Part shown: piece by piece, positions 57,147 to 63,865 of the stretch
How positions within the stretch are numbered: position 1 is the stretch's first letter
Layout of the letters: the number at the start of each line of letters is the position of its first letter
Source of the DNA: Halarcobacter ebronensis
GTDB taxonomy: Bacteria; Campylobacterota; Campylobacteria; Campylobacterales; Arcobacteraceae
Assembly (NCBI RefSeq): GCF_013201825.1
Contig: NZ_CP053836.1
Location: 2,542,001-2,606,000, forward strand
DNA: 64,000 nucleotides
Reading direction: 5' to 3'
Notes under the pieces: model-generated
What the model was told of the DNA's origin: nothing
Seen by the model: the letters and a program-made list of their open reading frames with translations, nothing else
The model's database searches: none
Made by a program: the position numbers and the translations under genes

Positions 57147-58631
57147 ATGAGTGCAGATATATTATCGTTTATTATCTTTTTACCAGCAATAGTTGGCTTT
57201 GGTTTAATGATTACAACAAAACATGTAGAGACTGTAAGAAACATAGCTTTCTTAACTACTACAGTTATACTAGCACTTGTTCTTAAAATCTATATTGACT
57301 TTGAACCAAGTTCTGGAATGCAGTTTGTTACAAATGTGCCTTGGATTGGTTCATATGGTATTAACTACTATATAGGTGTTGATGGTTTTTCTCTTACAAT
57401 TTTAATGATGATCGCTATATTAATTCCAACTGCTTACCTTCTTTTATGGGAAGGAAGAACAAAAGGTTACTGGATAAATATGCTTTTAGTTCAAACAGGT
57501 GTAACTGGAGCTTTATTATCTTTAGATGTAATTTTGTTTTATTTCTTTTGGGAAGTTATGCTTTTACCAGTTTTCTTAATGATTGGTATTTATGGATTTG
57601 GTGAAAAAGTATTTACAACTATTAAAGTTACAGTATATACAATGCTTGGATCATTACTTATGTTTGTGGCTATTTTATACCTTGGTGTTAGTTACTTTAA
57701 TGAGTTTGGACAATGGTCATTTCAATATGACTCTCTAACTCAAATTACAACACTAAGTTATAATGAAAAAATTTGGTTATTTTTAGCATTTCTTTCAGCA
57801 TTTGCTATTAAAATTCCAATTTTTCCACTTCATACTTGGATTATGGAAACATATAAAAATGCCCCTACAGGTGCAGTATTTTTACTATCATCAATAATGG
57901 CAAAACTTGGGGTTTACGCAATTGTTAGATTTATGATTCCAATTTTCCCTGATATTTATGTAGAGTTCTCTACTTGGTTTGTATTTATTGGACTATTTGG
58001 TCTTATATATTTTGGTGTAGCTGCACTAATGCAAGATGATATTAAAAGAATGTTTGCATACTCTTCAGCTTCACACTTAAGTTTTATAGCTGCTGGTATC
58101 TTCTCTCTAAATGAGTTTGGTATTAATGGAGCTTTATATTTAATTATTGCTCACGCAATTGCAACAGGGGCACTATTCTTACTTGTTGGTATTATCCATG
58201 ATGAAACTGGATTTAAAACAATCAAAGATTTAGGAGGACTTGCAAAACAGTCTCCAATTTTTACAACTATTTTTGCAATTATGCTTTTTGCAAATGTGGG
58301 ACTTCCTGGAACAAATGGATTTGTGTCTGAACTTCTTATAATTTTTGGGATTTATGAATTTAATCATACATTAGGTTATATCTCAGCTCTAACAGTTATT
58401 ATTGGAGCTTCATATATGTTATGGATGTTCCAAAGAGCAATTTTAGTTAAAAGAACTTCTGGAGAAGATCTTAAATTTAGAGATTTAAAAATCAAAGAGA
58501 TTCTAGGTTTAACTCCTTGGATTATCTTAGTATTTTTAATGGGTATATATCCAGAAATTTTCATAGATAAATTTGAACCAACTGTTACCCACTACTTAAA
58601 TGATATTTTACAAATTGGAGCAACAAAATGA
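57147..58631 (+). CDS. nuoM: NADH-quinone oxidoreductase subunit M
   Basis: Antiporter-like subunit, 494 residues and about 14 helices. Motifs: [18 protein letters not shown] (pump Glu), [38 protein letters not shown] and [13 protein letters not shown]. Two bases after nuoL, and four-base overlap with nuoN. Confidence 0.97.
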
Positions 58632-60133
58632 GTCAATTTATTCACATATTACCTGTAATAACAGTACTTATAGCAGCTGTTGCTTTGATGTTTATGAGTA
58701 TGTATACAGACAAATTTTCTGTTAAAACTTATATTGGTGTTTCATCTATAGTATTAGTTGCTGCACTAATATTTGTTTTTATTCCTTTTGGTGAGTCTTT
58801 TTCAATAAAACCATACAACTCAGTTTTTAATAATGTTTTAATATTTGATACTTTTTCAAACTTCTTTTATGTTTTACTAATTGGTGGAACACTATTAACT
58901 CTTTTAATTGGTGAACACTATTTTCAACATAGAGATTACTTTAAAGGTGAATTTTTCTCAATCTTATTATTTGCACTATTTGGTATGATGATTTTAGCAA
59001 ATGCAAATGAGCTAATAACTGCTTATATTGCACTTGAAATTGCATCTTTTTCTGTATATATTATGGTTGGTTATAACTCTGAGGATTCAAGAAGAGTTGA
59101 AGCTATCTTTAAATATTTAGTTTTAGGTTCATTTATTGGAGCATTCTATCTACTTGGTGTTGTTTTAGTTTATGGAGCTACTCAAACTACAAATTTAACA
59201 GAGATTTCTAACTTTATCTCAACAACAAATTTAAGTGATGCACCACTTTTATATATAGGATTAACACTAATTTTATTTACTTTCCTATTTAAAATATCTG
59301 CTTTCCCATTCCAACAATGGGTACTAGATGTTTATAGGGGAGCACCTATGATAATTACTGCATTTATGGCATCTACTTTTAAAATTGCAATCTTCTCTTT
59401 CTTCTTAAGAGCAATGCTACAAGATCTACAAGCAATTGTAAATTTCTGGGATTCTATAATTTATGTTGTAATTGTCTTAACTCTAGTATTTGGAACATGG
59501 TTAGCAGTCTCTCAAAAACTTGTTAAAAGAATGCTTGCAGCTTCATCAATAGTTCATACAGGATACTTACTATTAGGATTTATTGCGATTGGACAAAATA
59601 TGGATGCAGCATACTCTGTAGTATTTTATCTTATAGCATATCTTTTATCAGCTCTTGGTTCTTTTGGACTTGTTTCACATATAATCTCTGAAACAAAAGT
59701 AAGAGTAACCTATGATGATTTTAAAGGTTTAGCTCACGAAAGACCATTTTTAGCTGCAATGATGACGGTATTTATGTTCTCTCTTGCTGGTATCCCTTCA
59801 ACAATTGGATTTATGGGTAAATTCTATGTATTTACTGAAGCTATACATGCAGGATATATTGCCTTAGCAATCTTAGCAATTATTGCTACTTTTGTATCTG
59901 TTTACTACTATTTTAAACTTATAGCTATGATGTATTTCTATCCAACAAAAGGAGAATGTGTATCAAATGACTTTAATGATAAAAGAGTTTCTACTTATGC
60001 GATTGCTTTTTTAGCAATTATTACAGTTGTTGGTGGTATTGGTAGTGCAATTGTATTCTTTATACCTGTACTAAATATTGATACTTTAATAAACTTAACT
60101 CAGGTTTCAATTCAGTCACTATTTATAAAATAG
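58628..60133 (+). CDS. nuoN: NADH-quinone oxidoreductase subunit N
   Basis: Antiporter-like subunit closest to the peripheral arm, 501 residues and about 14 helices. Motifs: [23 protein letters not shown] (pump Glu), [53 protein letters not shown]. Last gene of the nuo operon. A 38-bp near-palindrome follows 17 bases after the stop. Confidence 0.97.
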
Positions 60134-60150
60134 TGATGTGTTAATATGTA

Positions 60151-60188
60151 ACATATATGCATAATTTTTAAAAATTGTGCATATATGT
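60151..60188. repeat. 38-bp near-perfect palindrome after nuoN
   Basis: The arms at 60151-60169 and 60170-60188 are inverted copies with no spacer, matching at 18 of 19 positions (TGCATA-rich ends, T5/A5 centre). A T run does not follow on either strand. Possible functions: transcript end structure for nuo, or a binding site upstream of frd (its right end is about 80 bases before the frd -10 box). Confidence 0.55.
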
Positions 60189-60233
60189 ATGGTTTAGCCA
60201 AATTCCCTTAAATGGGCTTTCCATTTTTTAGAA

Positions 60234-60274
60234 TGTACATTGTGTACAAAAATTGTACATAACTTTGATATAAT
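60234..60274 (+). promoter_or_regulatory. frdCAB promoter with three TGTACA repeats
   Basis: Extended -10 box TGATATAAT with TATAAT at 60269-60274. Three self-complementary TGTACA hexamers lie at 60234-60239, 60243-60248 and 60254-60259 (start spacings 9 and 11), covering the -15 to -45 region. A repressor or activator that binds TGTACA is inferred. The leader between -10 and frdC is about 80 bases. Confidence 0.6.
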
Positions 60275-60354
60275 TGGATAAGCCTATATAAGGGGATTTA
60301 AGCTATGATTACGTTTAGAATAAATTAAATAAATTTATAATGAAAGGATGTCAA

Positions 60355-61149
60355 ATGAGTGACCTAATAGAAGGTTATTTAGGTAAGACTGTAGAGAGAA
60401 AAAAGAGTAGAGTTCCAGCAAAACTTGATTATATTCAAAGTGCAACTGGATTATTTCTAGGTCTTTTTATGTGGGGACATATGTTATTTGTTTCATCAAT
60501 TTTAGTTAGCAAAGATTTTATGTATACAATTACAAAATTCTTTGAAGCAAGCTTTATTTTTGATGGTGGAGAGCCAATTATTGTTTCTGCAATTGTACTA
60601 TTTGTATTTATTGTATTTATAGTTCACGCAGCAATGGGAATGAGAAAACTTCCTTCTAATTTTAAACAATACCAAGTAATTAAAGCACATGCGGATAGTA
60701 TGGGGCATGAAGATACAAAACTTTGGTTTATTCAAGCCTTTACAGGTTTTGCAATGTTTTTCTTAGGTTCTGTTCACCTATATATTATGATGACAAATGC
60801 AGATACAATTGGACCTTATGGTAGTGCAGATAGAGTTTGGTCAGCATGGATGTGGCCTCTTTATATCCTTTTATTATTAGCTGTTGAATTCCATGGAACA
60901 ATTGGTCTATATAGACTTGCAGTAAAATGGGGATGGTTTGACGGAAGTGATCCAAAAGCAACAAGAAAAAAATTAAAAATGTATAAAAAAGCATTAACTT
61001 GGTTTTTCCTAATTCTTGGATTTGCTACACTTGCAGCTTATATGAAAATTGGTTATGAACATAAACAAGCTGGCAAAGTTGGTGAAAGATATACTCCAAC
61101 AGCACAAATTATGATGGATTATAATATTAATAGTGGGAGAGTTGCATAA
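60355..61149 (+). CDS. frdC: Fumarate reductase cytochrome b subunit
   Basis: Di-heme membrane anchor that oxidises menaquinol, 264 residues with five membrane helices. The preferred ATG is 60355 ([17 protein letters not shown]), with AAAGG eight bases upstream; an ATG at 60340 overlaps that site. His42, His91, His141 and His180 stand at the spacing of the Wolinella heme ligands (44, 93, 143, 182). Glu64 and Glu178 match Wolinella Glu66 and Glu180, which serve quinol oxidation and the proton path. The stop shares a base with the frdA start. Confidence 0.96.
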
Positions 61150-63134
61150 TGAAGATTAATTACTGTGATGCATTAGTTATTGGTGGAGGATTAGCAGGAC
61201 TTAGAGCTGCTGTTGCTACACAAAAAAAAGGTCTTAGTACAATCGTTTTATCACTTGTTCCTGTTAAAAGATCACACAGTGCTGCTGCACAAGGTGGGAT
61301 GCAAGCCTCTTTAGGTAACGCTAAAATGAGTGATGGTGATAATGAAGATTTACACTTTGCAGATACTGTAAAAGGTTCAGACTGGGGATGTGACCAAGAG
61401 GTTGCAAGAATGTTCGTTACAACTGCTCCAAAAGCTATTAGAGAGTTAGCATCTTGGGGTGTGCCTTGGTCTAGGGTAAAAGCTGGAACACATGAAGCAG
61501 TTATCAATGCTAAAAAAACAACTATTACTGAAGATGAAGATAGACATGGTCTAATCACTTCAAGAGATTTTGGTGGAACAAAAAAATGGAGAACATGTTA
61601 TACAGCTGATGCAACTGGGCATACAATGCTATTTGGTGTTGCAAATGAAGCTTTAAAACATGATGTTGATATTAGAGATAGAAAAGAAGCAATCTCTATT
61701 ATACATGAGAATGGAAGATGCTTTGGTGCAGTTGTAAGAGATCTTATCACTGGTGAACTTGAAGCTTATGTTGCAAAAGGAACTTGTATAGCTACAGGTG
61801 GATATGGAAGAATCTTTAAACAAACAACAAACGCAGTTATCTGTGAAGGTATTGGAGCTGCAATTGCTCTTGAAACTGGAGTTGCAACACTATCAAATAT
61901 GGAAGCTGTACAATTTCACCCAACACCAATCGTACCATCAGGAATTCTATTAACTGAAGGTTGTAGAGGTGACGGTGGAGTATTAAGAGATGTTGATGGA
62001 CATAGATTTATGCCAGATTATGAGCCAGAGAAAAAAGAATTAGCTTCTAGAGACGTTGTTTCAAGAAGAATGATTGAACATATTAGAAATGGAAAAGGTG
62101 TTCCTTCACCTTATGGTTTCCACGTATGGTTAGATATCTCTATTTTAGGTAGAGAACATATTGAAAGAAACTTAAGAGATGTTCAAGAGATTTGTCAAAT
62201 TTTCAACGGTATAGATCCAGCAGATGAGGGTCCAAAAGGTTGGGCTCCAGTTCTTCCAATGCAACACTACTCTATGGGTGGTATTAGAACGAAACCAACT
62301 GGTGAATCTACAAGACTATCTGGTCTATTTGCTTGTGGTGAAGCTGCTTGTTGGGATATGCATGGATTTAACAGACTTGGAGGAAACTCAGTTTCTGAAA
62401 CTGTTGTTGCTGGTATGATTATTGGTAACTACTTTGCAGACTACTGTTTAGCAAATGATGTTACTATTCCTACATCAACTATTCAAAGATTTGTTGATGA
62501 ACAAGATCAGTACCTAAACGAGATTTTAGCTTACAATGGGAAAGAAGATATTTTCAAAATCAAAAATAGAATGAAAGCTCTAATGGATGAAAAAGTTGGT
62601 ATTTTTAGAACTGGTGGTCCATTAGCTGAAGCAGTTGAAGAGTTAAAAGAGTTACTACAAAAAACAAAACATATCACTGTAAAATCTAAAGAGAGAGCTG
62701 GTAACCCAGAACTTGAAGAGGCTTATAGAGTTCCAAAAATGTTAAAAATTGCACTTTGTGTAGCTAAAGGAGCAAGGGACAGAACTGAAAGTAGAGGGGC
62801 ACACTATAGAGAAGATTTCTTAAAAAGAGATGATGCTAACTGGATGAAAAGAACCCTTTGTACTTGGCCAAATAAAGATGATATTGAACCAACATTAGAA
62901 TATGCTGATTTAGATATTATGAAAATGGAGATGCCACCAGCATTTAGAGGATATGGGGCAAAAGGTATGATTATCGAAAATGAACTATCTGCAACTAGAC
63001 AAAATGAAGTTGATTCTATTAGAGAAAAAATGGAAGCTGAAGGTAAAGATAGATTTGAGATTCAAGAGGCACTTATGCATTTTGATTTGCCTATGAATTA
63101 TAAAGAGAAAAATGAAAGAGCAGGAGATAAGTAA
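61149..63134 (+). CDS. frdA: Fumarate reductase flavoprotein subunit
   Basis: 661 residues; reduces fumarate to succinate at the inner face of the membrane. The FAD dinucleotide fold is [12 protein letters not shown] (10-21), covalent FAD attaches at His43 ([10 protein letters not shown]), and substrate-site regions include [26 protein letters not shown], the catalytic arginine region RDVVSRRM, and [14 protein letters not shown]. The C-terminal REDFLKRDD segment is normal. Translational coupling on both sides (TAATG). Confidence 0.97.
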
Positions 63135-63865
63135 TGAGTACACAAAAAGGTAGAGAAATTACAATTAGAGTACTTAAATTTAATCCAAGAAGTAAGGTGT
63201 CAAAACCTCACTATGTAGAGTACAAATTAGAAGAGACTCCAGGTATGACTCTTTTTATTGCATTAACATACATTAGAGAAAATCTAGATGCAGATTTATC
63301 TTTTGACTTCGTTTGTAGAGCGGGTATTTGTGGTAGCTGTGGAATGGTTGTAAATGGGAAACCTACACTTGCTTGTAGAACACTTATAGCAAACTACCCA
63401 GATGGAGTTTTAACACTACTTCCAATGCCAGCATTTGAACTAATCAAAGATTTATCAGTAAATACTGGTAAATGGATGGATGGAATGAGTAAAAGAGTTG
63501 AGTCTTGGATTATTTCTGATCATCAAGTTGATATCTCAAAACTTGAAGATAGAATTGACCCAGATGTAGCAAATGATACATTTGAACTTGATAGATGTAT
63601 TGAGTGTGGTATCTGTGTTGCTTCTTGTGGTACTATGCTTATGAGACCAAACTTTGTTGGTCCTGTTGGATTAAATAGAGTTGCAAGATTTGAAATTGAC
63701 CCACATGATAAAAGAACAGCGGATGATTTCTATGAATTAATTGGTGATGATGATGGAATTTTTGGTTGTATGTCACTTATGGCTTGTGAAGACCATTGTC
63801 CAAAACATTTACCACTACAAAATAAGATTGCTTACTTAAGAAGAAAACTAGTAGCACTTAGATAG
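63134..63865 (+). CDS. frdB: Fumarate reductase iron-sulfur subunit
   Basis: 243 residues that link flavin and heme. [2Fe-2S] ligands are in [10 protein letters not shown] with a later CRT, the [4Fe-4S] in [12 protein letters not shown], and the [3Fe-4S] in the [13 protein letters not shown] region. Length and motifs match Wolinella and Campylobacter FrdB. Last gene of frdCAB. The order C-A-B is that of the Campylobacterota enzyme. Confidence 0.97.

Follow-up and report, generated by a model that had tools for sequence, protein, structure and literature searches.

The gap between nuoN and frdC in Halarcobacter ebronensis harbours a cluster of three TGTACA hexamers, and the question raised by this locus is whether the cluster serves as an operator and, if so, for which part of the metabolism. 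In a preliminary description of this DNA it had been regarded as a candidate operator array for a regulator of fumarate respiration. The window, i.e. the whole stretch of 64 kb that was analysed, belongs to a genome of 3.17 Mb in one contig (G000). The three copies were found where they had been described, with starts at 60234, 60243 and 60254 and spacings of 9 and 11 bp, and all of them are housed in the 221-bp gap between the nuoN stop codon (60131-60133) and the ATG of frdC at 60355. The identity of frdCAB was borne out by NCBIfam. Copies 2 and 3 together form a 17-bp near-palindrome, TGTACAAnnnTTGTACA, which is the core operator candidate (Table 1).

Table 1. Positions of genes, repeats and promoter-like elements in and around the nuoN-frdC gap (window coordinates).
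Feature	Position	Strand	Remark
nuoN	58628-60133	+	gene immediately upstream of the gap
Palindrome TGTTAATATGTAACA	60139-60153	.	five bases past the nuoN stop; 60147-60153 on the reverse strand reads TGTTACA, a full TGTTWCW match
Terminator-like stem, degenerate	60197-60229	+	genus consensus AAAAGCCC..GGGCTTTTT
TGTACA copy 1	60234-60239	.	9 bp 5' of copy 2; exact there in 6 of 16 genus members
Core operator candidate TGTACAAAAATTGTACA (copies 2 and 3)	60243-60259	.	near-palindrome; nnnACAAnnnTTGTACA in the frdC leaders of all 16 genus members
Weak further repeat TTGATA	60265-60270	+	11 bp past copy 3; overlaps the TATAAT of the preliminary description
Extended -10-like element TGATATAAT of the preliminary description	60266-60274	+	TATAAT there in 1 of 16 genus members
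Conserved -10-like element GCTATGAT	60302-60309	+	GCTATnnT in 16 of 16
frdC	60355-61149	+	cytochrome b subunit (NCBIfam)
frdA	61149-63134	+	flavoprotein (NCBIfam)
frdB	63134-63865	+	iron-sulfur subunit (NCBIfam)

A search of Rfam returned no RNA element at the array site, and in the plasmid search nuoN was the sole match. The degenerate terminator-like stem perhaps closes the nuo operon; in the terminator scan no call (0 found) fell on this place. Additionally, the gap contains an A+T-rich long inverted repeat, CATATATGCATAATTTTTAAAAATTGTGCATATATG, at 60152-60187, the conservation of which is limited to its middle in the genus consensus.

By its total number TGTACA is not enriched in the window (15 occurrences against 17.8 expected); 11 of these lie within ORFs, one lies within the 23S rRNA and three constitute the array. 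Imperfect pairs with the 5-nt interval of the core (N5, up to two mismatches) occurred three times in the window against 3.5 expected, the only exact one being that at frdC. When the 221-bp gap was shuffled with its dinucleotides retained, three TGTACA copies were obtained in 0 of 20,000 shuffles. Genome-wide, 650 copies form five pairs at intervals of 2 to 15 nt, where about 1.9 would be expected (Poisson P ~0.04) and the reversed control gave three; this pair enrichment, taken for the present genome alone, is weak evidence. A chance or non-regulatory word, e.g. a restriction site, would agree with the chance-level total in the window and with the mild enrichment of clustered pairs in this single genome, but it is contradicted by the position-fixed conservation in all 16 genus members and by the recurrence at the same few promoters, and is considered extremely improbable. 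The three-copy array itself is unlikely to be a chance product, because the core is kept in the frdC leaders of all 16 genus members, which constitutes strong evidence.

For this comparison the frdC leaders of 16 genus members, the present genome counted, were used. nnnACAAnnnTTGTACA starts 108-113 bp 5' of the start codon in each of them, GCTATnnT is located 50-53 bp 5' of the start codon, and TATnnT begins 52-54 bp from the dyad centre. Matches to frdC were obtained in 16 further members of the family, and the leaders were examined in 13 of them (all except G019, G022 and G026). The exact N5 pair was found in one of these 13 leaders (G027), two TGTACA copies 22 bp apart in another (G030) and a single copy each in G018 and G020, while no TGTACA was detected within 170 bp of frdC in the remaining nine; a one-mismatch pair is located about 171 bp upstream of frdC in G024. 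The conservation upstream of frdC for which the preliminary description had called in related species thus holds throughout the genus but is mostly absent beyond it.

The extended word TTGTACAN4TTGTACA was matched in 20 of the 60 genomes searched and never in the control. These comprise 12 of the 16 genus members, 7 of the 21 other family members and 1 of the 23 genomes from beyond the family; the exact word is absent from the other 40 genomes, the present one included. This strong form of the site is for the most part restricted to the genus. With two mismatches allowed, the same word gave 96 matches in the own genome against 37 in the control; this result was left unused, 27 of the 96 matches being one tandem repeat. 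In that region (G000:C1:1285572-1293779, minus strand) one word recurs 27 times at exact steps of 315 bp; it is probably a very long tandem repeat and perhaps the gene of a giant repetitive protein.

Paired copies (TGTACA-N2..15-TGTACA) were counted 106 times in the 16 genus genomes and 36 times in the reversed control. The spacing was analysed for 72 pairs from the 12 genus genomes with complete place lists (leaving out G007, G003, G010 and G002). The N5 interval accounts for 30 of the 72 pairs, where 1 in 14 would be expected (binomial P 3e-16, in which independence is overstated since the species are related, as it is in all P values for genus and family). These 30 N5 pairs are located at acnB (11), in the gap between mqo and ileS (8), at DUF485-actP (5), at frdC (4), at a dicarboxylate-type transporter gene (CitMHS/Na_sulph_symp; 1) and inside an ORF (1), so that 29 of the 30 adjoin acnB, mqo, acetate-permease genes, frdC or the transporter gene. 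The genome-wide scan for clustered TGTACA, which had been proposed in the preliminary description, accordingly revealed pairs that are non-randomly placed in the genus. acnB, mqo and DUF485 were named via Pfam, and the genes which we take to be actP (acetate permease) and ileS were named by reading of their sequences. The five pairs of the own genome lie in the mqo/ileS gap (N12), at acnB (N5), at frdC (N3 and N5) and within an ORF. In the family outside the genus, pairs are present at mqo (G017, G024, G027 and G030), acnB (G025) and pta (G033); pairs in coding or unrelated places were found in G023, G026 and G028 and also in G051, a member of another family. Because the N5 pairs adjoin acnB, mqo and acetate-permease genes besides frdC, the paired site is best read as the candidate operator of a TCA/acetate regulon rather than of fumarate respiration specifically.

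A second frdCAB is encoded in the genome, the FrdC of which is 53% identical to the nuo-linked FrdC. It is present in two near-identical copies that flank a fumarase gene (3475/3489 bases, offset 5151 bp; L312 1263-4751 and 6414-9902, G000:C1 ~377-386 kb), by appearance a recent-looking tandem duplication, and it adjoins a Na/alanine symporter gene and a Lyase_1-family gene, presumably for aspartase as read from its sequence. TGTACA is absent from the leaders of both copies, so the site does not accompany fumarate-respiration genes generally. Given this TGTACA-free paralogue and the other neighbours of the site, i.e. acnB, mqo, the acetate-permease genes and the dicarboxylate-type transporter gene, the preliminary assignment to a regulator of fumarate respiration is not supported, and a fumarate-respiration operator was set aside as the main reading. 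On this view the nuo-linked frdCAB would be controlled within the TCA cycle, and the paralogous frdCAB may be the set for fumarate respiration. According to a review, FrdABC of Campylobacterota is able to work in both directions (PMC6682613).

The array had moreover been assigned to the interval from -45 to -15 relative to an extended -10 promoter. The arithmetic of this placement is right for TGATATAAT, but the TATAAT is peculiar to a single one of the 16 genus members, and for that reason TGATATAAT is probably not the ancestral promoter. With the conserved -10-like element GCTATGAT instead, the operator centre comes to lie near -65. In the present genome, the first base of its TATGAT is located 53 bp from the operator centre. 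In sister species the counterpart of GCTATGAT also provides the 5' half of a GCTAT-N6-GCTAT repeat, which is degenerate here. A simple promoter scan requiring a -35 element reported two sites between 60000 and 60450 (3.0 expected), and neither of the -10 candidates was among them.

A second geometry was obtained from acnB, for which the 12 leaders with a distal pair were examined (leaving out G002, G003, G008 and G010). In all 12, a second, half-degenerate site is present, with TGTACA 61-64 bp 5' of the start codon and TG(C/A/G)TATACT following at a distance of exactly 19 bp. What was observed directly are the sites with their conservation and neighbours and, at frdC and acnB, the fixed distance to conserved -10-like elements. 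If the first -10 base is taken as -12, the site centres would be located near -65 at frdC and near -43 at acnB. Relative to these inferred transcript starts the two centres are 22 bp apart, i.e. two helical turns, and this offset favours an activator without proving it. The mqo sites are found about 210-230 bp from the start codon, in a gap that is common with a divergent gene, and for the acetate-permease sites this distance is about 90-290 bp; due to these variable distances a single simple geometry of activation cannot account for all promoters.

LysR-type regulators typically bind an interrupted dyad of the form T-N11-A near -65. TACAAnnnTTGTA shows this form and its centre would fall near -65 of the inferred start, so that a LysR-type regulator, perhaps Cj1000-like, could occupy the palindrome together with a weaker site nearer to the promoter; Cj1000 is reported to activate frdA/B in C. 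jejuni (PMC6682613). The promoter-near site of acnB, however, is positioned at -43 and not at -65, and no LysR gene was recognised beside the targets in the regions examined, where unlabelled ORFs were judged by their first residues. A regulator of this type is a candidate of rather low probability. The AraC-type gene near ackA was set aside as a candidate, as it could not be recognised within the first 20 kb of the contig of G001, a genome that has the sites.

Further information on the type of binder was drawn from the shape of the site. When 47 distinct N5 sites from every available locus were pooled, among them a few unrelated ones, the base adjoining the copies was A/T on the inner side in 70 of 94 cases and on the outer side in 37 of 94 (Fisher P 2e-6, the species not being independent). 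This asymmetry of the flanks points to an inverted repeat near ATGTACAAWWWTTGTACAT rather than to two equal direct repeats; a sign to the contrary is that the weak further repeat at frdC runs head-to-tail in 10 of the 16 genus members, the present genome counted (TT[TG]A[CT]A). The preliminary remark that the array does not resemble an FNR/CRP box is agreed with by sequence, as 60234-60259 fits neither TTGAT-N4-ATCAA nor the CRP dyad TGTGA-N6-TCACA.

Tandem sites of OmpR/PhoB-type regulators customarily consist of head-to-tail copies with a repeat spacing of about 11 bp. This spacing is realised in the 30 N5 pairs, and the gene of an OmpR-type response regulator, part of a histidine kinase-response regulator pair that is syntenic with the target genes, lies between mqo and the acetate-permease genes. 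A tandem direct-repeat site for this protein was first favoured on account of the 11-bp spacing, with which the weak head-to-tail repeat at frdC also agrees. It was then lowered because the two copies have mirror-like rather than repeated flanks and because the promoters of the regulator's own cluster bear a different 11-bp direct repeat, and it is now held to be very unlikely.

This other repeat, TGCTAY-N5-TGCTAY, is found at the promoters of the acetate cluster and was matched eight times in the own genome and not once in the control. The places are the two pta leaders, the leader of the DUF4212 symporter, acnB, the gap before DUF485-actP (in reverse orientation), a solute-binding-protein gene, a gap next to a gene weakly similar to that of the histidine kinase, and one ORF end (coordinates of the first six, L299-L304: G000:C1:683190, 685558, 693049, 697879, 1142342 and 511573). 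A TATnnT follows 10 bp past the second half in one of the two pta leaders, at the symporter and at the binding-protein gene; acnB has none at this distance. At frdC, the repeat is present in most sister species and degenerate in the present genome; a one-mismatch scan of the window gave 7 matches against 7.3 expected and none at frdC. Where the acetate cluster is covered, it contains genes of a Cache-type histidine kinase and an OmpR-type regulator, which are not so placed in G016 and G035. It is more likely that the OmpR-type regulator of this cluster reads TGCTAY and not TGTACA, and an OmpR-type regulator of Sulfurospirillum is described to bind CTATA repeats with gaps of 6 nt (PMC7755780).

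In a search of the genome for activators of the NtrC/Fis type, only two HTH_8 matches exceeded the Pfam cut-off, one of them NifA-like, and the search led to a protein resembling CemR (HP1021/Cj1608/Abu0127 family), an atypical orphan response regulator of Campylobacteria. The gene (G000:C1:238045-238932) encodes a receiver domain and a weak C-terminal HTH_8 (16.4 bits, under the 22-bit cut-off). The Cys of the protein at position 27, or 31 if counted from the upstream start codon, is invariant and corresponds to the one reported for CemR; the protein was called CemR-like from its domain layout, the conserved Cys and its conservation. Sites of the Fis type have a 17-bp geometry with G/C at -7/+7, which the core of the array shares. 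CemR might bind TGTACA via its C-terminal Fis-like HTH, in which case the array would be the Arcobacteraceae form of its box. A CemR-like match was obtained in 57 of the 60 genomes searched, the own one counted, but its HTH is near-invariant even in species without sites. The co-occurrence of regulator and site does not discriminate between the candidates, as OmpR-type matches were present in 59 of 60 genomes (paralogues being caught too) and CemR matches in 57 of 60, site-free species included. Against CemR stands also the leader of the gene in the window that we take, by our reading, to be nuoA, the counterpart of a proven CemR target of A. butzleri, which is free of TGTACA.

The published evidence on CemR is likewise divided. 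Mutation of cemR is reported to cost both C. jejuni and A. butzleri TCA and respiratory enzymes, but two TCA enzymes, one of them FrdABC, did not decrease in the C. jejuni mutant (PMC11334517). The published HP1021 boxes are TGTTWCW and WKTHWCA, and TTGTACA fits the looser one in 6 of 7 positions (PMC6052347). The operator contains no TGTTWCW; a perfect TGTTACA is instead located elsewhere in the frdC leader, within the palindrome behind nuoN, whose form TGTnA-N5-TAACA is present in 11 of the 16 genus members. From PMC10593804, only HP1021 boxes at comB and oriC2 were obtained. By eye, TGTTAC(T/C) words close to the HP1021 box were seen to recur in mqo and actP leaders across the family (L190, L176, L178, L289 and L296). 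CemR is the first guess for the binder, one that we expect to fail clearly more often than to hold.

It is fairly probable that the array is an upstream operator of frdCAB, at which a putative dimeric regulator of the genus keeps the TCA cycle in step with acetate and dicarboxylate uptake. The earlier notion of an operator array is supported by its conservation at a constant position in all 16 genus members and by the recurrence at functionally related promoters. A putative dimeric DNA-binding protein would recognise TGTACAAnnnTTGTACA upstream of frdCAB, and the same protein would tie the TCA cycle to the uptake of acetate and dicarboxylates, with acnB, mqo, frdCAB and the neighbouring acetate-permease genes as its predicted targets. 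The regulator might act mostly by activation, from positions near -65 at frdCAB and -43 at acnB, the sign being a guess, and frdCAB would here be controlled as the succinate-oxidising step of the cycle.

As a wider and only tentative proposal, the site may be a TCA master operator of Arcobacteraceae, at which CemR or another regulator acts via the symmetric TGTACAAnnnTTGTACA and the acetate two-component system acts in addition on TGCTAY repeats in overlapping promoters. If so, acnB, mqo and acetate uptake would be switched together with a fumarate reductase run as succinate dehydrogenase, and two inputs would converge at acnB and frdCAB in bacteria that are reported to be without ArcA. The Campylobacterota reportedly possess neither ArcA nor FNR orthologues, and most Arcobacter regulators are said to lack a reported function (PMC6682613). 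Among the open-access papers listed, no title or beginning of an abstract pointed to a TGTACA operator for these bacteria; the two listed papers in which the letters occur are, judged by title, surveys of bacterial communities. With a defined operator and a short list of neighbours, the missing regulator could be found directly by DNA-affinity pull-down. The operator would moreover connect FrdCAB with the oxidative TCA cycle in bacteria where one enzyme may serve both directions.

Several known systems can be compared with the one described here. Palindromes of the NtrC/Fis type, TGCACYAnnnTRGTGCA, have the same length of 17 bp, an N3 centre and G/C at -7/+7, and several sister species read TGCACAAnnnTTGTACA at frdC; in contrast to these systems, no promoter of the sigma-54 type was noticed here by eye. 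In gammaproteobacteria, ArcA is one regulator over several steps of the TCA cycle, which is likewise proposed here, but its orthologues are reported missing from Campylobacterota (PMC6682613). The CemR/HP1021 regulon also covers TCA and respiratory genes, and a CemR-like protein is encoded in the present genome; the CemR/HP1021 boxes, however, are unlike TGTACA (PMC6052347), and the nuoA leader lacks this word. The CTATW repeats of PceP, the OmpR-type regulator of Sulfurospirillum, resemble the second motif TGCTAY-N5-TGCTAY, whereas they are unlike TGTACA and serve another signal and other target genes (PMC7755780). Finally, Cj1000 and RacRS of C. jejuni likewise regulate genes of fumarate uptake, production or reduction (PMC6682613), in contrast to which the set of neighbours found here belongs to the TCA cycle and acetate metabolism.
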